Assembly (NCBI RefSeq): GCF_004365575.1 | Contig: NZ_SOBG01000005.1 | Span: 134,193 to 198,192, forward strand | Direction of reading: 5' to 3' | Length of the DNA stretch: 64,000 nt | From: Hypnocyclicus thermotrophus | GTDB lineage: Bacteria > Fusobacteriota > Fusobacteriia > Fusobacteriales > Fusobacteriaceae | The notes under the pieces: model-generated | Database searches by the model: none | The model's input: only the letters and a program-made list of their open reading frames with translations | What the model was told of the DNA's origin: nothing | Translations under genes and position numbers: made by a program | In this document: positions 17,774 to 29,083 of the stretch, in pieces | Layout: every line of letters starts with the position of its first letter | Position numbering within the stretch: position 1 is the first letter of the stretch

Positions 17774-18451
17774 ATGAAAAAAAATGATCCAAATCAAATA
17801 ATTCTTGGTGAACTTGTAGATATAGAAATAATAAACCCCGATAGTGAAGGTCGGTATCATGCTACAAAAGTATCTGATATTTATGAAGAAGATAATTCGT
17901 TTTCAGTAAATTGGCCAATATATGAAAGAAGATATTTACCAGCAAGAAGAAATGATAAAATAAAAGTAATATTAAAGAGAAAAGATGCAATATATTATTT
18001 TGAGAGTCGGATAAAAGCTAGAGCTTTAGAACCATATGCACATCTTAGAATAGAAAATCCTAAAAAATTGATAAAAAAACAAAGAAGAACATATTTCAGA
18101 CTTCCATTAAATCTGATAGTAAAATTTATTAGATTAAAAGATGAGGTAAAAGAAGGAGAACTACCTCCAGTATATTCAGGAATTTCACTTGATTTAAGTG
18201 GAGGAGGAATGTCGATATTATCTAAAACAGAACTTGAGTTAGGAGAAAATATAGAAATTAGTTTTGAATTAACTAATGGAACAAGATACGAATATGTATC
18301 TTGTAAAGTTAGAAGAAAAAAATTAATAGATATAAAATATGAGTATGGTTTAGAATTTTTAGATATGCCAAATAGAGATAGAGAGTATATAATAAGTTAT
18401 CTTTTTGAAGTGCAAAGAACTAGAGCGAGAGCAAAAGATGCAAAAGAATAA
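17774..18451 (+). CDS. PilZ domain protein, YcgR-like
   Basis: A 225-residue protein with an N-terminal YcgR-like beta domain (about 10-95) and a C-terminal PilZ domain (about 100-215). The c-di-GMP motifs are visible: RRTYFR (RxxxR) near residue 105 and DLSGGGM (D/N-x-S-x-x-G) near 140. It is likely a cyclic-di-GMP effector. No flagellar gene is nearby, so an effect on envelope or adhesion is more plausible, but the output is unknown. It follows the SLH porin gene by 18 bp with SD AGGGGG and is probably cotranscribed with it. Confidence 0.85.
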   Translation: MKKNDPNQIILGELVDIEIINPDSEGRYHATKVSDIYEEDNSFSVNWPIYERRYLPARRNDKIKVILKRKDAIYYFESRIKARALEPYAHLRIENPKKLIKKQRRTYFRLPLNLIVKFIRLKDEVKEGELPPVYSGISLDLSGGGMSILSKTELELGENIEISFELTNGTRYEYVSCKVRRKKLIDIKYEYGLEFLDMPNRDREYIISYLFEVQRTRARAKDAKE

Positions 18452-18472
18452 TATAAATTTAGGAGGGGAATA

Positions 18473-19819
18473 ATGGAAAAATTAGTATTTAATTACAAAC
18501 TTGCTGAAAAATTTATAGCGGAAGATGAGTTGAACCTTATTAAAGCTCAAACGATGGAAGCTGTAAAAGTATTAGAATCAGGTGAAGGCGCTGGAAATGA
18601 TTTTTTAGGTTGGAGAGAATTACCTGAAAACTATGATAAAGAAGAATTTTCTAGAATAAAAAAAGCGGCAGAAAAAATAAAAAATGATTCAGAAGTATTA
18701 ATAGTTATTGGAATTGGAGGATCGTATTTAGGAGCAAAATCAGCAATAGAATTTTTAAAACACACTTTTTACAATAAACAAACAAAAGAAGAAAGAAAGT
18801 CACCAGAAATTTATTTTGCAGGAACAAATATTAGCGGAACATATATAAAACATTTAATAGATATAGTAGGAGATAGAGACTTTTCTGTAAATGTAATATC
18901 AAAATCAGGAACAACAACTGAACCAGCAATAGCTTTTAGAATTTTTAAAAAATTATTAGAAGAAAAATATGGAAAAGAAGAAGCTAAAAGTAGAATATAT
19001 GCAACTACTGATAAACAAAAAGGAGCATTAAAACAACTTGCTACAGGTGAAGGATATGAAACATTTGTAGTACCTGATAATGTAGGAGGTAGATTCTCAG
19101 TTTTAACAGCAGTAGGATTATTACCAATAGCAGCAGCTGGAATAGATATAGATGAATTAATGAAAGGGGCTTATGATGCACAAGTAGACTTTAAAGCTCC
19201 ATTTGAAGAAAACTATTGTTATCAATATGCAGCAGTAAGAAATATATTACATAGAAAAGGAAAAGATATAGAATTATTAATAAATTATGAACCAAGATTA
19301 CATTATATAGCAGAGTGGTGGAAACAATTATTTGGAGAATCAGAAGGAAAAGATAATAAAGGACTTTATCCTGCATCAGCTGATTTTACAACTGATTTAC
19401 ACTCTTTAGGACAATATATTCAAGATGGAAAAAGACATTTGTTTGAGACATTAATTGAAATAGAAAAACCAGAAGAAGATATAGTAATAGAAGCTAATGA
19501 GACAGACTTAGATGGATTAAATTATTTAGCTGGAAAAACTATGGATTATGTAAATAAAATGGCAGCTAAAGGAACTATATTAGCTCATACAGATGGAGGA
19601 GTACCTAATTTAAAAATAACTATACCAGAAGCTACAGCATATCATTTAGGATATTTGTTTTATTTCTTTGAAAAAGCTTGTGGTGTAAGTGGATATTTAT
19701 TAGGAGTAAATCCATTTAATCAACCAGGAGTAGAAGCATATAAGAAAAATATGTTTGCTTTATTAGAAAAACCTGGATTTGAAGAAGAAACTAAAAAAAT
19801 AAAAGAAAGATTAAAATAA
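18473..19819 (+). CDS. pgi: Glucose-6-phosphate isomerase
   Basis: A 448-residue enzyme of glycolysis and gluconeogenesis (glucose-6-P to fructose-6-P). Diagnostic motifs are [16 protein letters not shown] (about 80-95), [15 protein letters not shown] (about 142-156), [14 protein letters not shown] (about 205-218) and the C-terminal [12 protein letters not shown]. Length fits the short bacterial Gpi family of Firmicutes and Fusobacteria rather than the 550-residue enterobacterial type. SD AGGAGGGG precedes ATG. It follows the PilZ gene by 21 bp and ends in a terminator. Confidence 0.96.
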
Positions 19820-19826
19820 AATCTTT

Positions 19827-19857
19827 AAAAAAGAGCGTCAATTGTCGCTCTTTTTTA
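19827..19857 (+). terminator. Terminator after pgi
   Basis: A stem AAAAAGAGCG / CGCTCTTTTT is followed by further T. Confidence 0.88.
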
Positions 19858-19873
19858 ATTAAAATAAAAAAAG

Positions 19874-19901
19874 TTGAATTATTTGGAAAAAGTTGTATAA
19901 T
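19874..19901 (+). promoter_or_regulatory. Promoter of M18 aminopeptidase
   Basis: TTGAAT (19874-19879), a 16-bp spacer and TATAAT (19896-19901). The leader before ATG 19990 is about 80 bases, very AT-rich and without obvious structure. Confidence 0.7.
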
Positions 19902-19989
19902 ATTTAGAAGAAGAAAATATTTTTAAAATAAATAAAAATATTTAAAAATTTATATTAAATAAAATAAAAGTAGAAAATGGAGGAAACAG

Positions 19990-21381
19990 ATGTTAGAAAG
20001 AAAGCTAGAAAATGGTTGGAAAAATCTAGATGAAAAAACAAAAAAAGATATTTTTGATTTTTCAGAAGGATATAAAAAGTTTTTAGATATTTCTAAAACA
20101 GAAAGAGAATTTGTAAATAAAAGTATAGAATTAGCAGAAGCAAAAGGATTTGTAAATGCTGATACAGTAAAAGAATTAAAAGCATTTGACAAAGTATATT
20201 ATATAAATAGAGGAAAAAATGTAATATTAGCTGTAATAGGTGAAGAAGATATAGAAAATGGAGCTAATTTTGTAGTATCACATGTAGATGTACCTAGACT
20301 TGATTTAAAACAAAATCCTTTATTTGAAGACTTAGAAATAGCAATGATGAAAACACATTATTATGGTGGAATAAAAAAATATCAATGGGTATCTATACCA
20401 CTTGCACTTCATGGAGTTGTAATATTAGAAAATGGAGAAAAAATAGAGATAGTAATAGGAGAAGATGAAAATGATCCTGTGTTTACTATACCTGATATAC
20501 TACCCCATTTATCTAGAAAAGTGCAAGATGATAGAAAAGCGAGAGAAGTAGTAAAAGGTGAAGAATTAAATATAATAGTAGGAACTATTCCAACTACAAT
20601 TGAAGATAAAGAGATAAAAAATAGAGTAAAATATGCAGTACTTGAAAAATTAAATGAAAAATATGGAATGAAAGAAGAAGATTTTTTATCAGCAGAATTT
20701 GAGATAGTACCAGCATTTAAAGCAAAAGATGTAGGTCTTGATAGAGCGATAGTTGGAGCATATGGGCATGATGATAGAATTTGTGGATATACTTCATTAA
20801 AAGCTATATTAGAAGTAGAGAGACCTAAAAAAACAGCTATTTGTTATATAGCTGATAAAGAAGAAATAGGAAGTACAGGTTCTACAGGACTTGAATCAAA
20901 ATATATAGAATATTTTATGGGAGACATTATTAGTAAATTAAAATCGAATTATAATGATATGATGCTTAGAAGATGTTTATGGAGTTCAAATGCATTATCA
21001 TCAGATGTAAATGCAGCAGTAAATCCTATGTTTAAATCAGTTCATGATAGTGATAATGCAGCAAAATTTGGATATGGAATTGTTGTAACAAAATATACAG
21101 GACATGGCGGAAAATATTCTTCAAATGATGCAGATGCAGAATATGTATATAAAATAAGAAAAGTATTAAATGATAATGGTATAAAATGGCAAACAGGAAT
21201 GCTTGGAAAAGTAGATGAAGGAGGTGGAGGAACAGTAGCAAAATTTTTAGCACATTATGGTATAAAAACTATAGATGCAGGACCAGCACTTCTTGCTATG
21301 CACTCTCCATTTGAATTAGCATCAAAATTTGATATATATGAAACTTACAGAACATATAAAGTATTTTTTGATATGAAATAA
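19990..21381 (+). CDS. M18 family metallo-aminopeptidase
   Basis: A 463-residue aspartyl-aminopeptidase-like enzyme with two zinc ions. Metal and catalytic motifs are SHVDVPRLD (about 92-100), GAYGHDDRICGYTSL with the bridging Asp (about 257-271), ADKEEIGSTGSTG (about 295-307) and a C-terminal AMHSPFELAS histidine. It would trim N-terminal acidic or neutral residues from peptides, suiting an amino-acid-fermenting anaerobe. SD GGAGG precedes ATG 19990. It is a single gene between its own promoter and terminator. Confidence 0.92.
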   Translation: MLERKLENGWKNLDEKTKKDIFDFSEGYKKFLDISKTEREFVNKSIELAEAKGFVNADTVKELKAFDKVYYINRGKNVILAVIGEEDIENGANFVVSHVDVPRLDLKQNPLFEDLEIAMMKTHYYGGIKKYQWVSIPLALHGVVILENGEKIEIVIGEDENDPVFTIPDILPHLSRKVQDDRKAREVVKGEELNIIVGTIPTTIEDKEIKNRVKYAVLEKLNEKYGMKEEDFLSAEFEIVPAFKAKDVGLDRAIVGAYGHDDRICGYTSLKAILEVERPKKTAICYIADKEEIGSTGSTGLESKYIEYFMGDIISKLKSNYNDMMLRRCLWSSNALSSDVNAAVNPMFKSVHDSDNAAKFGYGIVVTKYTGHGGKYSSNDADAEYVYKIRKVLNDNGIKWQTGMLGKVDEGGGGTVAKFLAHYGIKTIDAGPALLAMHSPFELASKFDIYETYRTYKVFFDMK

Positions 21382-21436
21382 TAATATTATATAAAAAACT
21401 TGAAAAATTTTTTTTTTAGAGTTATATTATAGATAT

Positions 21437-21468
21437 AAAAAGATAGTATTTTTTACTATCTTTTTATT
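21437..21468 (+). terminator. Terminator after aminopeptidase
   Basis: A perfect stem AAAAAGATAGTA / TACTATCTTTTT with a T-rich loop and trailing T/A. Confidence 0.85.
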
Positions 21469-21479
21469 TATAATTAAAA

Positions 21480-21616
21480 ATTTATCTGAAGACACAAAGA
21501 AATTTGTGTTTAAAATTAAATTTTTAATTTGAAAGGTTGTGAGAGGTATGAAAAATTTAAAAACTTAAAAGCTACTGTTTGATAAAAAAGTATCATAAAA
21601 TATTTAAGGAGGAAAA
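21480..21616 (+). promoter_or_regulatory. Structured leader before EIIA-antiporter operon
   Basis: A perfect hairpin ACACAAA-GAAA-TTTGTGT (21492-21509) is followed by a second AT-rich hairpin, a minimal open frame ATG 21548 to TAA 21568 (six codons) and a small TGATA/TATCA hairpin (21580-21595), ahead of SD AAGGAGG. This could be a regulated 5' leader. Function and promoter position are not established. Confidence 0.35.
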
Positions 21617-22069
21617 ATGACAGTAGAGATAAAAAAACTTTTAAGTAAAGAAAATGTAGTATTTTTAAATACACAAGATATGGAAAGTACTATAGAAGTT
21701 TTAAGTGAAAAAGCAGAAGAAATAGGTTGTATTTCTTCAAAAGATGAATTCAAAGAAGCTATATTAGAAAGAGAAGGATTGGTAAGTACAGGAATAGGAT
21801 TTGGAATAGCTATGCCTCATGCAAAATTAGAAAATATTAGTGAGTTTTTTATGATAATAGGAATAAATAAAAAAGGAATAGACTGGGATGCAATAGATAG
21901 AAAACCTGTTGTAGCAGTTTTTCTAATAGGTGGCCCTTCTAATCAACAAAAAAAATATCTTCAAATTATAGCTAAATTAATGCTTCTAATAAAAAATAGT
22001 GAAAGAAGAGAAAAATTATTAAATGCTAAAGAAGAAAAAGAGATTGTAGAAATTTTTCAAGATTTTTAA
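21617..22069 (+). CDS. Stand-alone PTS EIIA domain protein (fructose/nitrogen type)
   Basis: A 150-residue EIIA-2 domain. The phosphorylatable histidine lies in GIAMPHAK near residue 70, within the typical TGIGFGIAMPHA context, followed by KGIDWDAIDRKPVVAVFLIGGP. No EIIB/EIIC sugar permease is adjacent. The next genes are a CPA2 cation/proton antiporter, a small protein and a ClC protein carrying its own EIIA domain. I infer an EIIA-Ntr-like regulator of ion transport rather than a sugar carrier. SD AAGGAGG precedes ATG 21617, and the next gene starts 24 bp downstream. Confidence 0.85.
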   Translation: MTVEIKKLLSKENVVFLNTQDMESTIEVLSEKAEEIGCISSKDEFKEAILEREGLVSTGIGFGIAMPHAKLENISEFFMIIGINKKGIDWDAIDRKPVVAVFLIGGPSNQQKKYLQIIAKLMLLIKNSERREKLLNAKEEKEIVEIFQDF

Positions 22070-22093
22070 TCAATTTAATAAGGAGATATTAAA

Positions 22094-23305
22094 ATGCACA
22101 TTAACATATTAATAATATTAGCGGGACTTTTTTTATTAGCGTTTGTAAATAAATTAGTGTGTCCGAAATTAAAATTACCTGAAGTAACAGGATATGTAAT
22201 TCTTGGAGCTATTATAAGTGGTGTTGCTGGAATTACGGTGGGAATGTCAAAATTAAATGAGGTCCTAGATTCTATAGAGATTATATCAAGTATAGCATTA
22301 GGAATAATTGGATTTTCAATTGGTATTGAATTAAAACTAAGTGTATTAAAAAAACTTGGGAATTCTATATTTTTTATAGTATTATTTGAAGTATTTGGAG
22401 GATTTGTAGTAGTAGCGATAACTTCAAAAATATTTGGATTTCAAACATATACTGCCTTATTATTAGGTTCTGTAGCAGCAGCAACAGCACCAGCAGCAAC
22501 AGTTGCTATAATAAGAAAATATAAATCAAAAGGAGAATTAACATCAACTATTTTGGCAGTTGTAGGGATAGATGATGCAGTTGCATTAATAGTTTATGTT
22601 CTTGCAGCAGGTTTTGCTTCATCAATGGTAACAGGAGAAAAACTTCATATATTACATATATTTGTAAAAGTTGGAATATCTATATTTATAGCTATATCTA
22701 TAGGGGCAATAAGTGGATTTGTTTATAGTTATATAGTAAAAAATATAAAAAATCAAGATACAATGGAAATGATATTAGTGGCATTTATATTACTTTTGTT
22801 AGGATTATCAGAAATGTTTGATGTTTCCGAACTATTAACTATAATGACTTTTGGAGCATTTATAACTAATCTTTCTGAGGTGACAACTAGAAAAAGTGAA
22901 AATATAATTGAGAAATTTACAGGAGTATTTGTTGGAGCTTTCTTTATAGCTGGTGGTGCTTATTTAGATTATAGTTTAATAAAAGCAGTATTTGGTACGA
23001 GTGTATTATTTTTTATAGCACGGACTATTGGAAAAATATTTGGAGCAAAAATTGGGGCTACTATTGGAAAAGCTTCCCCAAAAGTAAAAAAACATATAGG
23101 AGTAATGCTTCTTCCACAAGTAGGGGTAGCAGTAGCACTTGTTATCTCAATAAAAAAACAATTTGTAGGAGTGCAAGTTCATGGAATAGATATAGGTACT
23201 TTTATATTTAATATATTGTTATTAACTACTCTTCTTACAGAGTTCATTGGTCCTATATTGACAAAACGAGCTTTACTAGCTGTTAAAGAGATAAAAGAAA
23301 GATAA
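22094..23305 (+). CDS. CPA2-family cation/proton antiporter
   Basis: A 403-residue inner-membrane protein with about 11-13 hydrophobic segments. It has the Na+/H+ exchanger fold: KLKLPEVTGYVILGAIISG near the start, GSVAAATAPAATVAIIRKYKSKG (about 130-152) and the ion-binding VVGIDDAVALIVYV (about 158-171). KefB/KefC-like TrkA domains are absent, so it is the short CPA2 form. The ion (Na+ or K+) cannot be told. It is cotranscribed with the EIIA gene, which may control it through its phosphorylation state. Confidence 0.88.
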   Translation: MHINILIILAGLFLLAFVNKLVCPKLKLPEVTGYVILGAIISGVAGITVGMSKLNEVLDSIEIISSIALGIIGFSIGIELKLSVLKKLGNSIFFIVLFEVFGGFVVVAITSKIFGFQTYTALLLGSVAAATAPAATVAIIRKYKSKGELTSTILAVVGIDDAVALIVYVLAAGFASSMVTGEKLHILHIFVKVGISIFIAISIGAISGFVYSYIVKNIKNQDTMEMILVAFILLLLGLSEMFDVSELLTIMTFGAFITNLSEVTTRKSENIIEKFTGVFVGAFFIAGGAYLDYSLIKAVFGTSVLFFIARTIGKIFGAKIGATIGKASPKVKKHIGVMLLPQVGVAVALVISIKKQFVGVQVHGIDIGTFIFNILLLTTLLTEFIGPILTKRALLAVKEIKER

Positions 23306-23333
23306 TAATTGAGAGAATGAGAGGGGAATAAAT

Positions 23334-23657
23334 ATGCACTATTTATATGTAAAAGTAATGGATATAGACTATAAAGAAGACATATTTTTAGCATTAGAAA
23401 GCGTTGATATAGTAAAAGCTTCATATATTGAGGGAACTAATTTAGATAATGCTCTTACAAGAGAATTGCCACTTTTTAAAGGTTTTTTTCAAAGTGAAGA
23501 AGAGAAATCTAAGCAAGTAATTTTAATAAATGCTTTAATTAATGATGAAGAACAAGCACAAGAGTTTATAACAATGCTAAGAGAAGCTGGAATAGATGTA
23601 GATAATGGAGAGATAATAAGAGTATTAACATGGCCTGTTAATATATTGGTAGGATAA
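23334..23657 (+). CDS. Small protein of the antiporter/ClC operon, possibly PII-like fold
   Basis: A 107-residue protein I do not recognise with certainty. The pattern of strands and helices (LYVKVMDIDY, then DIFLALESVDIVKASYIEG, then KQVILINALINDEEQAQEFITMLREAGI, ending EIIRVLTWPVNILVG) suggests a ferredoxin-like alpha/beta fold as in PII or CutA-like signalling proteins. There is no signal peptide or membrane segment. Its place between a cation antiporter and a ClC protein suggests a soluble regulator of these transporters, which is inference. SD GAGGGG precedes ATG 23334, and a terminator follows. Confidence 0.6.
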   Translation: MHYLYVKVMDIDYKEDIFLALESVDIVKASYIEGTNLDNALTRELPLFKGFFQSEEEKSKQVILINALINDEEQAQEFITMLREAGIDVDNGEIIRVLTWPVNILVG

Positions 23658-23669
23658 ATAAAATTATTT

Positions 23670-23698
23670 AAAGTCAAACCAAAGTGTTTGACTTTTTC
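23670..23698 (+). terminator. Terminator after small protein gene
   Basis: A perfect 10-bp stem AAAGTCAAAC / GTTTGACTTT with a 6-base loop and a short T-tract. It separates the antiporter operon from the ClC gene. Confidence 0.8.
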
Positions 23699-23756
23699 CA
23701 TTTAGAAAATTATAGAAATAATAATAGAGTTATAGATTTTAGGAGGGTAAATAATT

Positions 23757-25526
23757 GTGCGACGAAAATTTTTAGAAGAAAAAATTATATTTTCTAGTAT
23801 TATAAAATGGAGTATACTAGCTTTATTTACAGGTATAATAGTAGGAACATCAACGTCACTTTTTTTAAAGGCTATAGACTATGGAATAAAATATAGAAGA
23901 ATTTTTTCTTTTAAATATTACTATTTATTACCATTAGCACTTATAATAAGTGTATTTTTGATCCAAACATTTGCAAAAGATGCAAAAGGTCATGGAACGG
24001 AAAAAGTTATAGAAGCTATACATAAATATGATGGTGCGATAAAACTTATGGTAGTGCCAATAAAAGTACTAGCTACACTTATAACTATAATATTTGGAGG
24101 ATCAGTAGGGAAAGAAGGTCCGAGTGCACAAATAGGTGGAGGTGTAATGTCTTTTGTTTCTGATATATTGAAAATAGAAGATAAAGATAAGAAGAAATTA
24201 GTAATATGTGGTATAGCAGCAGGATTTGGAGCGGTATTTGGAACTCCAGTAACTGGAGCAGTATTTGCAGTAGAAGTCCTTTATGTAGGAAAAATGTTGT
24301 ATGATGTATTATTACCTTCTTTTATAGCATCTTTTACGTCTATATATGTATCAAAATTATTTTATGTAAGACATTCAAATTATTTAAATGTAGGGAATCT
24401 AGATAATTCATCATTAATTTTATATTTAAAAGTATTTATAGCAGCAATATTATTTTCTATAGTTACATTTATGTTTATTGAAATTTTAAATAAAATAGAA
24501 AATATTGCAGAAAAGATAAAATTAAATATTTATATAAAAACTTTAATTGCTAGTTTTATAATTATTCTTATAGCATTAATATTTTCTGATGACTATTTAG
24601 GATTGGGATTGCATATGATAGATGATTCGATTAATGGAGAAGATATTATATGGTATGCTCCGTTTATAAAAATTTTTACTACAACTATTACTTTAAGTTT
24701 TGGAGGAAGTGGTGGAATATTAACTCCAGTATTTTTTATAGGTTCAACTTTAGGAAGTATAGTAGGAGAATTATTACATGGTTCGCTACCTTTATTTGCA
24801 GGACTTGGAATGGTAAGTGTATTAGCAGGTGCAGCAAATACGCCAATAGCTTCTGTTTTAATGGCGGTAGAGCTATTTGGAGGAGGAGTAACACCTTTTG
24901 CAGTTTTATCTTGTATAATAACATTTTTATTAACGGGTCATAGAAGTGTATATCCAACTCAAATACTTTCTATGAAAAAATCTGAATCAATTGATTTGGA
25001 AGTAGGAAAGGAAATAAAATCTACAACTGTAATGGGAACAACAAAAAAAGTTATGTATTTAAAAAAAGCTTTAGATAATAACCAACTAGAAAAAATAATA
25101 CCTTTAGAAAATATATTTTTTTTAAAAGCTGAAACAAAAGAAGAAGTATTAAAAGAATTTGCTAAAAAAATGAGTAATATGAAGAAAAAAATGAAAAAAA
25201 AAGATATAATGAAAGCTCTTCAGCAAAGAGAAGAAATTTATTCAACCGCTTTAGGGCACAAAATAGCTATACCACATTTTGAAGTATCTTTAAATGAAGA
25301 TTTTTTCATTTTATTTGCAATATTGGAAAAAGATATAAAATGGGATGATAGAAATTATGTTAATACAGTAGTAATGATAGCTAAACCAGAATTTGAACAA
25401 AAAATATATCTTGAAATAGTTGCTAAAATATTAAAACAGATAAAAGATGAAGATATAAATAGAGAGTTAATAGCAAGCAAAACGCCAGAAGATGTAATGG
25501 CTGTTTTAAAGAGAAAAAAATCTTAA
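23757..25526 (+). CDS. ClC chloride channel/transporter fused to a PTS EIIA domain
   Basis: A 589-residue fusion. Residues 1 to about 410 form a ClC membrane domain with GGSVGKEGPSAQIGGG (gating Glu in GKEGP), VFGTPVTGAVFAVEVL and GGSGGILTPVFFIGS. The canonical GSGIP anion filter is replaced by GHGTE, and the residue matching the E. coli ClC internal proton Glu203 is Val. Residues about 440-589 are an EIIA-2 domain with HKIAIPHFE carrying the phosphorylatable His. Start GTG 23757 follows AGGAGGG. It lies downstream of the EIIA/CPA2 operon. Phosphorelay control of anion flux is inferred. Channel or exchanger activity cannot be decided from sequence. Confidence 0.88.
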   Translation: MRRKFLEEKIIFSSIIKWSILALFTGIIVGTSTSLFLKAIDYGIKYRRIFSFKYYYLLPLALIISVFLIQTFAKDAKGHGTEKVIEAIHKYDGAIKLMVVPIKVLATLITIIFGGSVGKEGPSAQIGGGVMSFVSDILKIEDKDKKKLVICGIAAGFGAVFGTPVTGAVFAVEVLYVGKMLYDVLLPSFIASFTSIYVSKLFYVRHSNYLNVGNLDNSSLILYLKVFIAAILFSIVTFMFIEILNKIENIAEKIKLNIYIKTLIASFIIILIALIFSDDYLGLGLHMIDDSINGEDIIWYAPFIKIFTTTITLSFGGSGGILTPVFFIGSTLGSIVGELLHGSLPLFAGLGMVSVLAGAANTPIASVLMAVELFGGGVTPFAVLSCIITFLLTGHRSVYPTQILSMKKSESIDLEVGKEIKSTTVMGTTKKVMYLKKALDNNQLEKIIPLENIFFLKAETKEEVLKEFAKKMSNMKKKMKKKDIMKALQQREEIYSTALGHKIAIPHFEVSLNEDFFILFAILEKDIKWDDRNYVNTVVMIAKPEFEQKIYLEIVAKILKQIKDEDINRELIASKTPEDVMAVLKRKKS

Positions 25527-25568
25527 ATAAAAATTTTTAGTATAAAAAAATAAATTTTGGAGAATTTT

Positions 25569-25597
25569 AAAGCTGCTAAACAGCAGCTTTTTTTATT
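25569..25597 (+). terminator. Terminator after ClC-EIIA gene
   Basis: A perfect stem AAAGCTGCT / AGCAGCTTT with loop AAAC is followed by T-rich sequence. Confidence 0.88.
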
Positions 25598-25624
25598 GTT
25601 ATTTTATAGTAAACATGATATAAA
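25596..25624 (+). promoter_or_regulatory. Promoter of bioA
   Basis: TTGTTA (25596-25601), 17-bp spacer, TATAAA (25619-25624), directly behind the ClC terminator. Confidence 0.6.
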
Positions 25625-25675
25625 ATAATAGAAAAAATTTATAATTTTATTTACCAAGAATAAAATGGAGGAAAA

Positions 25676-26950
25676 ATGGAAAAGATAGAAGATAAAAATT
25701 TATGGTATCCATATGCTCAAATGAAAACTAGAAAAGAAAATTTTTTAGTGAAAGGAGCACAAGGAGTATATATTGATATATATCATAGTGAAAAAAAAGA
25801 GGAAAAAAAACTTATAGATGCAGTATCTTCATGGTGGTGTGCAGCTCATGGATATAATAATAAAGAGATAAATGAAGCAATAAAAAATCAAATAGATAAA
25901 TTTTCTCATGTAATGTTAGGTGGACTTACTCATGAAATAGCACAAAATGCATCAAAAAAAATAGTTGAGATAACAAAAGAGGGATTAAATCATGTGTTTT
26001 TTTCCGATAGTGGTTCTGTTGGAGTAGAAGTAGCTTTAAAAATGGCTATTCAATATTATAAAAATAAAGGAGATGTAAGTAAAAATAAAATTATATCATT
26101 AACTCATTCATATCATGGTGATACATTTAAAACAATGGAAATAGGAGATGATCCAGACTATCATTTTGCATTTAAAGAGTTTTTTAGAGATTGTTATCAT
26201 ATTGATGCACCAAAGGGATTAGAAGCAAATGATGATGAAATAAAGAGGTGTATAAATGATTTAGAGAAATTATTAAAAGAAAAATCTGATAAGATAGCAG
26301 CTTTTATAGTAGAACCATTAATTCAAGCAGCAGGAGGATTTAATTTTTATAGTTATAAATATTTAAATGAAGCTAAAAAATTGTGTGAGAAATATGATAT
26401 TTTATTTATATTTGATGAAGTAGCAACTGGATTTGGAAGAACAGGTAAAATGTTTGCAATGGATTATTGTGATTTTACTCCAGATATATTGGTACTTGGA
26501 AAAGCACTCACAGGTGGATACATAGGACATGCAGCGACAGTAGCAACTACAAAAGTTTTTAAAGAATTTTATAGTGATGATAGTGAAAAAGCTTTTATGC
26601 ATGGACCTACTTTTATGGGAAATCCTTTAGCTTGTAGTGCAATTTTAAAGAGTATAGAACTTTATGAAAAAAATGATTATTTAAGTAAAATAAAAAATAT
26701 AGAAGAAATAATGAGAAAAAAATTGATAAATATTAAATCTAATAAAATAAAAGATATAAGAGTATTTGGAGCAACAGGTGTAATTGAAGTTGGAAATAGT
26801 ATTTTTTTAAGAGGATTACAAGAATTTGCATATGAAAAAGGAGTTTGGATAAGACCATTTCTAAATTATGCTTATATTATGCCTCCATATATAATAAAAG
26901 AAGAAGAATTGTTAAAAATAATAAATGTATTAGAAGAGTGGTTTAAATAA
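25676..26950 (+). CDS. bioA: Adenosylmethionine-8-amino-7-oxononanoate aminotransferase
   Basis: A 424-residue class-III PLP aminotransferase of biotin synthesis, converting KAPA to DAPA with SAM as amino donor. BioA-specific N-terminal motifs LWYPYAQMKT and DAVSSWWCAAHGYNN are present. The PLP-binding DEVATGFGRTG and the lysine in LGKALTGGYIGHAA are intact. SD TGGAGG precedes ATG. No other bio gene lies within the window, so it stands alone between its own promoter and a shared terminator. Confidence 0.93.
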   Translation: MEKIEDKNLWYPYAQMKTRKENFLVKGAQGVYIDIYHSEKKEEKKLIDAVSSWWCAAHGYNNKEINEAIKNQIDKFSHVMLGGLTHEIAQNASKKIVEITKEGLNHVFFSDSGSVGVEVALKMAIQYYKNKGDVSKNKIISLTHSYHGDTFKTMEIGDDPDYHFAFKEFFRDCYHIDAPKGLEANDDEIKRCINDLEKLLKEKSDKIAAFIVEPLIQAAGGFNFYSYKYLNEAKKLCEKYDILFIFDEVATGFGRTGKMFAMDYCDFTPDILVLGKALTGGYIGHAATVATTKVFKEFYSDDSEKAFMHGPTFMGNPLACSAILKSIELYEKNDYLSKIKNIEEIMRKKLINIKSNKIKDIRVFGATGVIEVGNSIFLRGLQEFAYEKGVWIRPFLNYAYIMPPYIIKEEELLKIINVLEEWFK

Positions 26951-26988
26951 AAAATAGACCTAATATTTATTTTAGGTCTATTTTTTAT
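26951..26988. terminator. Bidirectional terminator between bioA and SLH porin
   Basis: A long stem AAAATAGACCTAA / TTTAGGTCTATTTT lies between two convergent genes, with a T-run on either side. Confidence 0.88.
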
Positions 26989-26989
26989 A

Positions 26990-29083
26990 TTAAAATTTAG
27001 TTATAAATGATATTTTAGCTTGATCTTGTTCATTATCATAGATAGTTGTGTAATTATACATAAAATTATCAAAATCTTCATATGTATCATTAGGTCCATA
27101 AGATAGTTTTAAATAATTAGAATTATCAAATTTATATTTCATAGATATAGAAAATTTTGTATTATTTTTATAGTTATTATCACTATCCACCATTTTTCCA
27201 TTTGATTCAATTCTATCAAGTTGATATTTTCCACCAAATGAATAAGTTATATTATTTTTACTCAAATCTTGTTTATAAAATAAAATAAAATTATCTTCAT
27301 CTGAACTAGAATTACTATATTTTTTATTCATATATCTTCCACCAATTAAGATATCAGAATTATATGGAATAGATTCAGGTGTTTTAGGTTTAGATAAAAC
27401 ATTATTATTTTCAAAATTCCATCCTAAATTAATTTGTTTATATAATTCATCGCCATCATCATAATACTTAGAAGCAAATTTCATACTTTTATTATTAGTA
27501 TATAATTTACTATGCTCTCCATATAACTCCCAAGAATTTATATTTGTATCATTATTTCTAATATATCCAAAAGTAAATTTATCAAATGTATTATTACCAG
27601 AAACATTTTTAGCTGTAATTCCAGGTCTATAAATAGTTTTATTTACTAAAGTTAAAGTAGAATCAGTTGTATCATTATCTTTATTATTATTAATAATATC
27701 AAAAGTAAGATTATAATTATTATTTACTTTTAAAATATTTTTAAAAGATAATTCTTTTTCTTTTGAAGAATTAATTTCATTAGATACATATGTAGAATGA
27801 TACAAACTAGTTTTTAAGTATGGTGAAGTATATGAGATACCTTTTATTCCACCATAATGGTTTATATCAGATTTGATTAAATCAGTTTGTTTAAATACCT
27901 GATAATCAGTATCTCCAAGTCCAGTAATATCATAATTTTTCCCAGTGCTTATTCCGGCAAAAAGAATATCTATTTTGCTATCTTTTAAATATTTTGTAGT
28001 GTTAGAATATAAATAAATAGCAGAGTTATCATCCATAGGTAAAATATATTCGTTATTAGTAGAATTACTATTATAATCTTTGTTTGACACAGTAGAATAT
28101 TCTACATTAAAATATGTATAAGTATTATTATTTATAGTAAAATTAAAATCTGAATTAAAAGATAAAAATGATTTTTTAGTAGTATTTATAGGATTATCCA
28201 ATCGAGTATACATTAAATTATAATTAGATTTAGTACCTTCTTTATTATTAAAATATCCAAATACACCTCCCCACTCAACTCCAAATAGTTCCCCATATGA
28301 AGTAGTTGAAAACAAAGTGGTATATTTTTTGTTTAATAAAGTACTTTCTATAATATATCCATCATTATTTTCTATTTTATCGCCATTTAATATATTAAAA
28401 TTAGAGTTAAATGAAGGAAGTTTTTTATTTGAATAATATTCATTGTCGCTTTCTTCATAAATATTTTTAAACATAACAATTTTTAAAGTATCATCAGATA
28501 AATGAATATCATAATTAGCTAACCCATAATTTGGATCAAAAGTAAAAGTAGAATTTAAATAATTATTAAATTTTGTTAAAATACTAGCTCTTCCATCAAT
28601 ATCTAGAGTAGAATTGTTAGAAGTAAAATTTTTATTTATTTCTAATTCTGCATTAAATCTTACTCTGTCAATCATAGATTTTAATTCATTGTAATTATTA
28701 TCAATTTTTTGATTAAGTTCAATTTTTAAAGTATCAATTTTTTGATTAAGTTCATAATCTGTAGCTCCAAGTTTACCAAGTTCATTTGCATATTCACTAA
28801 CCAAAGCTTTTAAAATAGTTATATCCTGTATGTTAGCATTCTTTTTTATATAATTTTCATTGTAAATAATACTATTATATAAGATAGTAGCTATTTCATA
28901 TCTAGAAAAATTTTTATTGCCTTCAAAATTTGATTTGTTATCAAATAGAGGAGTTAAAATATTTTTTTCAGTTAAAGATTTTATAGCTTTACCTTCAAAA
29001 GAATTATAATCAATATCGTCAAATGCAAATGAAATATTTGATATAATAAGTAGAGCTATTAAAAATAAATTAGATTTTTTCAT
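26990..29083 (-). CDS. SLH-domain outer-membrane porin, second copy
   Basis: A 697-residue protein with the same architecture as the one at 15848. The signal peptide is KKSNLFLIALLIISNISFAF. The SLH domain (about 20-75) has FEGKAIKSLTEKNILTP and FSRYEIATILYNSI. A coiled coil (about 105-145) contains the repeated ELNQKIDTLKI / ELNQKIDN, and a Asn/Asp/Tyr-rich beta-barrel ends ISFITKF. The barrel sequence is very different from the first paralogue, suggesting different ligands or immune diversification. It is one of only two genes on the minus strand. On that strand SD AGGAGGG precedes the start, and a promoter is at 29120-29148. Confidence 0.83.
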   Translation of the reverse strand: MKKSNLFLIALLIISNISFAFDDIDYNSFEGKAIKSLTEKNILTPLFDNKSNFEGNKNFSRYEIATILYNSIIYNENYIKKNANIQDITILKALVSEYANELGKLGATDYELNQKIDTLKIELNQKIDNNYNELKSMIDRVRFNAELEINKNFTSNNSTLDIDGRASILTKFNNYLNSTFTFDPNYGLANYDIHLSDDTLKIVMFKNIYEESDNEYYSNKKLPSFNSNFNILNGDKIENNDGYIIESTLLNKKYTTLFSTTSYGELFGVEWGGVFGYFNNKEGTKSNYNLMYTRLDNPINTTKKSFLSFNSDFNFTINNNTYTYFNVEYSTVSNKDYNSNSTNNEYILPMDDNSAIYLYSNTTKYLKDSKIDILFAGISTGKNYDITGLGDTDYQVFKQTDLIKSDINHYGGIKGISYTSPYLKTSLYHSTYVSNEINSSKEKELSFKNILKVNNNYNLTFDIINNNKDNDTTDSTLTLVNKTIYRPGITAKNVSGNNTFDKFTFGYIRNNDTNINSWELYGEHSKLYTNNKSMKFASKYYDDGDELYKQINLGWNFENNNVLSKPKTPESIPYNSDILIGGRYMNKKYSNSSSDEDNFILFYKQDLSKNNITYSFGGKYQLDRIESNGKMVDSDNNYKNNTKFSISMKYKFDNSNYLKLSYGPNDTYEDFDNFMYNYTTIYDNEQDQAKISFITKF

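Follow-up and report, generated by a model that had tools for sequence, protein, structure and literature searches.

A cluster of four genes in a 64,000-nucleotide stretch of the Hypnocyclicus thermotrophus genome (contig NZ_SOBG01000005.1, positions 134,193 to 198,192; hereafter the window) encodes, on one strand, a free EIIA protein of the phosphoenolpyruvate (PEP)-dependent phosphotransferase system (PTS), a cation/proton antiporter, a 107-residue protein and a fusion of a ClC transporter domain with a second EIIA domain. An earlier note on this DNA had located these four open reading frames correctly and had proposed that the PTS controls cation/proton and anion flux together. Here we find that the 107-residue protein is, by its predicted fold, PII-like, and that the pair of EIIA and PII-like protein, not the link between EIIA and ClC, is the conserved core of the cluster. 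We propose, with a probability of about 0.6, that this pair is a portable post-translational control unit for cation/proton antiporters. A wider proposal, to which we give slightly better than even odds, is that the two proteins form a signalling cassette that moved as a unit among CPA1, CPA2-like and Mrp antiporters, reached ClC by fusion in two Fusobacteriota, and couples ion and pH homeostasis both to PEP status and to a PII-sensed metabolite.

Conservation of the EIIA-PII pair

To survey the neighbourhood, the PII-like protein alone served as query, so that its neighbours were unselected. As a single sequence it retrieved a homologous gene from 6 of 98 Fusobacteriota genomes; a search of GTDB genome contigs yielded 12 loci, adding Delongbacteria and Sphaerochaeta, and further loci came from 18 of 392 sampled Spirochaetota genomes (19 loci) and from 3 of 13 Delongbacteria genomes, the latter identical to the three already obtained from the GTDB contigs. 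A search of plasmids with the same protein gave zero matches. Removal of duplicates left 33 distinct loci in Fusobacteriota, Delongbacteria and Spirochaetota, and at every one of them (33/33) an EIIA gene lies in the same-strand cluster of the PII-like gene.

The third member of the cluster varies. It is a CPA2-like antiporter in 24 of the 33 loci, which run EIIA-antiporter-PII, with the sister genome G001 deviating as EIIA-PII-antiporter; in the 15 of these loci that were measured, one of the two gaps between the genes spans 6-29 bp and the other -1 to 28 bp. At one locus (G037), the pair stands beside a CPA1 antiporter with a TrkA_C domain, truncated by the contig end, a protein of the PRK05326 potassium/proton kind (NhaP2/CvrA-type) with 34% identity to E. 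coli CvrA/YcgO over 282 residues. At three loci a PII-EIIA pair heads an operon for an Mrp-type Na+/H+ antiporter; MnhE, MnhG and a Proton_antipo_M subunit were found at all three, and MnhB and Oxidored_q2 at L109, which was also tested for them. The remaining five loci (L103, L104, L105, L106 and L107) contain the EIIA-PII pair alone. The Sphaerochaeta genome G104 possesses a CPA2-like module as well as one of the Mrp type (L034 and L110). On a Delongbacteria contig, a second EIIA-antiporter pair is located at L026:10334-12310, and no PII-like gene lies beside it.

That the cluster is a chance neighbourhood of ordinary genes with no regulatory link is very improbable, given a linkage that holds in all 33 loci of three phyla while gene order and antiporter type vary. 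Within the 24 complete CPA2-like loci, the distance matrices of EIIA, antiporter and PII-like protein are correlated at 0.88-0.93, a level reached in 0 of 2000 permutations; run without control for the species tree, this test indicates co-inheritance rather than co-adaptation.

Predicted fold of the 107-residue protein

The earlier note described the product of the third gene as a small soluble protein and overlooked its PII-like nature. Searches of Pfam, of NCBIfam and, with phmmer, of the PDB returned no significant match, and the family has no name in Pfam or NCBIfam; a profile search of the PDB gave Ligase interacting factor 1 as its sole weak match (E 0.0026), which we judged to be chance. 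An AlphaFold2 model computed from an alignment of 13 relatives has a mean pLDDT (predicted local distance difference test score) of 83.6 and the element order strand-helix-strand-(loop)-strand-helix-strand, a ferredoxin-like fold. Its top Foldseek matches are PII proteins (2xul, E 2.7e-5), and its best VIA-align match is the PII-like protein 3dfe (Z 10.3, root-mean-square deviation (rmsd) 2.9, 78 aligned, residues 1-107), with SbtB at Z 10.0 and CPII at Z 9.7. Each of the 50 VIA-align entries listed belongs to the PII, PII-like or DUF3240 proteins, and the structural alignments give about 8-17% identity to known PII proteins. The Pfam P-II model (PF00543, cut-off 25 bits) does not match the protein of the window, but it scores 27.7, 24.2 and 22.6 bits with the distant relatives at the Mrp operons; the L107 relative gives no match. 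It is on these predicted-fold matches, together with the P-II scores of the distant relatives, that we call the protein PII-like.

One may ask whether the PII-like protein is a sensor at all. If EIIA by itself controlled the antiporter, its small partner could serve another purpose, such as transporter stability, transporter assembly or the buffering of a ligand, and sense no nucleotides. The 107-residue family yielded no identifiable PII signature for nucleotide binding, and the positions conserved in 80% or more of the 33 PII-like sequences are mostly hydrophobic, joined by Y13, K14, E15, D16, E44 and G50. The Delongbacteria pair that has no PII-like gene fits such a division of labour, as does E. 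coli, where, according to PMC11808508, the EIIA protein PtsN acts on the antiporter YcgO by itself. However, all listed fold matches fall among PII, PII-like and DUF3240 proteins, and the five loci that retain EIIA and PII-like protein with no antiporter point to a direct partnership between the two. We rate this explanation as unlikely.

EIIA and its phosphotransferase input

Both EIIA domains of the window exceed the cut-off of 27 bits for PF00359. With the model for PtsN/EIIANtr proper (TIGR01419), the free EIIA scores 66.7 bits, below the cut-off of 138.7, and it shares 30% identity with E. coli PtsN over 152 columns. The active-site His68 is kept in the module EIIAs of all 33 loci and an Arg 16 residues N-terminal to it in 32 of 33; both residues are also present in the free and the fused EIIA domain of the window. 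The source genome (G000) encodes two pairs of enzyme I (EI) and HPr, so that a phospho-donor is available for the module EIIAs, and the absence of EI and HPr, which the earlier note had named as a finding that would refute its idea, is not the case. More widely, EI was found in 14 of 15 module genomes, the exception being the metagenome bin G106.

One EI of the source genome is close to E. coli PtsI, and the EI on contig C5 is of the other type. We had considered the second EI/HPr pair as dedicated to the module and dropped the idea: this EI type occurs in about 49 of the 98 Fusobacteriota genomes (48 with more than 450 bits, and G009). Each of the six Fusobacteriota module genomes encodes it, G009 on a contig that is partial, and in G001 and G037 an EI-specific family search recovered no other EI; with so wide a distribution, however, its link to the module is weak and we make no claim for it.

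In a tree of EIIA sequences, the module EIIAs do not form one supported clade (5 changes on the tree). The CPA-type module EIIAs, 27 sequences that include two EIIA-PII pairs and the CPA1 locus, form a clade (support 95/84) with the EIIA domain of the window fusion, which is thereby separated from the other EIIAs of its own genome; since the fusion domain, PtsN and several other sequences are long-branched, their placements are unsure. The fusion of a module-clade EIIA to a transporter nevertheless argues that these EIIAs act on transport proteins, and it speaks against the notion that the pair regulates transcription or some common housekeeping target, with the antiporter nearby merely through shared expression under ion stress. 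Such a role would account for the 5 of 33 pairs that have no antiporter, and EIIA domains do occur fused to DNA-binding domains, as in an HTH-EIIA protein of G038. Yet neither the module EIIA nor the PII-like protein has a recognized DNA-binding domain, and three kinds of antiporter are joined to one and the same pair, which makes this reading improbable in our view.

The antiporter

The second gene encodes a member of the Na_H_Exchanger superfamily. Its AlphaFold model (pLDDT 81.1) matches NapA with Z 38.8 (rmsd 3.4, 373 aligned), and SOS1, NhaP and NHA2 tie with NapA (Z 38-39). The Asp-Asp motif D160-D161 is invariant (14/14); this motif is typical of electrogenic exchangers. The designation CPA2, used in the earlier note, holds only loosely: the superfamily assignment stands, but with the NCBIfam CPA2 model TIGR00932 the score, 50.8 bits, stays below the cut-off of 238.3, and we therefore use CPA2-like. 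The protein stops at 403 residues with no cytoplasmic regulatory domain.

Antiporters of this subfamily, taken as matches above 500 bits, occur in 5 of the 98 Fusobacteriota genomes, in all five adjoining a PII-like gene, and the next matches (76 bits in G088, 73 bits in G007) have neither EIIA nor PII adjoining. Between the source genome and G001, flanking genes are 88-96% identical, EIIA 83% and the PII-like protein 80%, and the antiporter just 57%. On these sequence identities, it is possible that the regulators stay while the antiporter evolves faster or was replaced. The two antiporter genes compared (22094-23305 of the window and L015:6827-8035) also lie in clusters of different gene order.

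The ClC-EIIA fusion

Full-length ClC-EIIA genes were found in 2 of the 98 Fusobacteriota genomes, G000 and G038, and in both they adjoin the antiporter and PII-like genes. In G038 the fusion heads the antiporter-PII cluster in place of the free EIIA, implying that one EIIA serves both transporters or that the antiporter there has no EIIA of its own. The fused EIIA of G038 is 59% identical to the free EIIA of the window; the fused domain of the window has diverged from that same protein, with 29% identity. Directly upstream of the G038 cluster lies a gene for an RCK-type K+ channel (Ion_trans_2, TrkA_N, TrkA_C; L016:10412-11461), and the HTH-EIIA gene (HTH_17 and PTS_EIIA_2; L016:17-697) lies at a distance of some 6 kb.

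The module of the sister genome G001 lacks the ClC-EIIA gene, and no remnant of it was found between the antiporter and bioA; only the region of the stem-loop 3' of the fusion gene (window positions 25554-25631) matches the G001 DNA directly 3' of its antiporter (81% over 81 bases). In Spirochaetota, no ClC-EIIA fusion was found among the ClC matches listed for the 392 genomes (below 1e-20, at most 3 candidates scored per genome). In a tree addressing whether the fusions had one origin or two, for which a motif and length filter kept two of nine Fusobacteriota ClC loci, the two fusions grouped in 19% of bootstrap trees. A 446-residue EIIA frame in G084 was rejected as a further fusion, and we read it as an ordinary fructose-type PTS permease with an N-terminal EIIA.

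In ClcA, Glu148 serves as gate, Tyr445 and Ser107 are central, and Ser107 together with Glu203 marks H+/Cl- exchangers. The ClC domain retains Glu148 and Tyr445, has His in place of Ser107, and in both fusions shows a gap at Glu203, where the alignment is not firm; the Ser107/Glu203 combination is thus not seen in it. Its best sequence match of solved structure is the CLC-F fluoride/proton antiporter 6d0j (155 bits). CLC-F fluoride exchangers are characterized by the motifs GREGV and GM/GN, and the corresponding motifs of the ClC domain, GKEGP and GHG, differ from both.

These findings leave considerable room for the possibility that ClC-EIIA is functionally separate, a PTS-controlled transporter for anions (or of a fluoride-like kind) that neighbours the module by chance; we regard this as a realistic alternative, if the less probable one. 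It would agree with the lack of the fusion in G001, with its absence at full length from 96 of the 98 Fusobacteriota genomes, with a terminator-like stem-loop 5' of the fusion gene and with the match to a CLC-type fluoride/proton antiporter. Against it stands the G038 cluster, which has the fusion where the free EIIA would be expected. We tentatively favour ClC-EIIA as an optional, lineage-specific extension that may put counter-ion flux under the same signal, and this is the least secure part of our proposal. Of the joint control that the earlier note had envisaged, the cation/proton side has gained through the conservation of EIIA-antiporter linkage in three phyla, and the anion side has remained thin.

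Layout of the locus and its surroundings

The genes of the cluster (Table 1) are separated, in order, by 24, 28 and 99 bp. No PTS sugar permease is encoded among the five neighbours tested (17774-29083), the rest of the window not having been surveyed for one, and to this extent the earlier note's remark that a permease is missing was borne out. The five neighbours encode a PilZ protein, glucose-6-phosphate isomerase, an M18 aminopeptidase, BioA and one unassigned protein. This last one, of 697 residues (26990-29083, minus strand), has no Pfam match at 0.001 and is probably an outer-membrane protein. The source genome comprises 2.2 Mb in 17 contigs, and its relatives are Fusobacteriota. On another of its contigs (C6), genes for flagellar FliG and FliF were recognized with Pfam (L021:568-3183); Fusobacteriota are mostly regarded as non-motile.

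Table 1. Positions of the cluster genes, their key residues, nearby stem-loops and the EI/HPr genes of the source genome
Feature	Position	Strand	Details
Free EIIA (fructose/Ntr class)	21617-22069	+	150 residues; PF00359, 123.8 bits
His68 codon of free EIIA (active site)	21818-21820	+	
CPA2-like cation/proton antiporter (Na_H_Exchanger superfamily)	22094-23305	+	403 residues; PF00999, 117.9 bits
Asp-Asp motif D160-D161 of antiporter	22571-22576	+	
PII-like protein	23334-23657	+	107 residues; named by predicted fold
Terminator-like stem-loop (possible attenuator), between PII-like and ClC-EIIA genes	23670-23695	+	consensus scan only
ClC-EIIA fusion	23757-25526	+	589 residues, GTG start; PF00654, 253.1 bits, and PF00359, 89.9 bits
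His507 codon of fusion	25275-25277	+	fusion domains: ClC, residues 62-392; EIIA, residues 448-586
Terminator-like stem-loop 3' of ClC-EIIA gene	25569-25590	+	consensus scan
EI/HPr pairs	L072:5939-7947 and L073:4605-6585		G000 contig C5, ~126 kb; G000 contig C1, ~248 kb

Discussion

The observations from which we start are the genes themselves, their predicted folds, the conserved phosphorylation site, the presence of EI and HPr and the conserved linkage. From these we infer a mechanism in which EI and HPr would phosphorylate EIIA at His68, so that EIIA reports the PEP state of the cell and thus its energy or sugar status. By analogy to E. coli, where PtsN and YcgO provide a model for the direction of control, unphosphorylated EIIA may bind the antiporter and hold it down, and phosphorylation would release it. 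The PII-like protein could supply a second input through its T-loop, its ligand most likely being an adenine nucleotide or a similar small molecule. It might dock directly on the antiporter, in the manner of GlnK with AmtB or SbtB with SbtA, or it might gate the contact between EIIA and antiporter. In the source genome, the second EIIA, fused to ClC, would link counter-ion flux to the same signal, and electrogenic cation/H+ exchange and anion movement could thereby be switched together.

Several observations weigh against this proposal. Many of the 33 loci are closely related or near-copies, so that independent events are far fewer than 33; in five of them no antiporter adjoins the pair, and its target may therefore be elsewhere or different; and the module genome G106, a metagenome bin, shows no EI. 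In the PII-like protein, the putative T-loop (around residues 39-60) is modelled with low confidence (block means 58-75), and no classical PII motif for nucleotide binding was recognized. YcgO is bound via its CorC domain, which is absent from both the antiporter of the window and the CPA1 protein of G037, which ends after TrkA_C; the contact between EIIA and antiporter must therefore differ from the one in E. coli. As for ClC, its closest relatives in Spirochaetota stand alone, with an EIIA or PII neighbour in 0 of 13 stretches, indicating that ClC is not generally tied to the module, and the stem-loop at 23670-23695 may cut the fusion gene off from the operon.

PTS and PII are the two best-known bacterial readers of metabolic state, and they have mostly been studied in carbon and nitrogen control. 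If our proposal is true, both readers extend to ion and pH homeostasis, the module offers a natural minimal system, in bacteria other than proteobacteria, for the control of K+ and Na+ exchange by PtsN-like proteins, and a protein family unnamed in Pfam and NCBIfam acquires a likely role. Control of an antiporter by EIIA and control of transporters by PII proteins are each known. A search of the open-access literature found no description of a cassette of EIIA, PII-like protein and antiporter, nor of its reuse over three antiporter kinds; one review that it returned discusses PII control and EIIA control separately in the passages concerned.

The closest parallel is the PtsN-YcgO system of E. 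coli. In PMC11808508 and PMC13104625, unphosphorylated PtsN is described as binding the K+/H+ antiporter YcgO (CvrA) and inhibiting antiport, and PMC11808508 locates this action at the CorC domain. Both systems use an EIIA of the same family, whose phosphorylation state controls a cation/proton antiporter in E. coli (PMC11808508), and the G037 module adjoins a CvrA-like antiporter. They differ in that E. coli ptsN and cvrA are unlinked, that no PII protein is involved there, and that the main antiporter of the modules is CPA2-like. On the PII side, PMC10710835 presents GlnK-AmtB and SbtB-SbtA as cases in which a small PII or PII-like protein controls a membrane transporter. The predicted fold of the 107-residue protein, with its match to SbtB, is in keeping with these, but its neighbour is a cation/proton antiporter and none of its loci lacks an EIIA. 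For the fusion, the counterpart is LacS, a sugar transporter with a fused EIIAGlc-like domain (PMC10710835): both join a transporter to an EIIA-type regulatory domain with a phosphorylation site, which is EIIAGlc-like in LacS and of the fructose/Ntr class in ClC-EIIA, and the transporter is ClC instead of a sugar carrier. The ClC domain itself is best compared with CLC-F (6d0j), from which it departs by GKEGP in place of GREGV and GHG in place of GMN.

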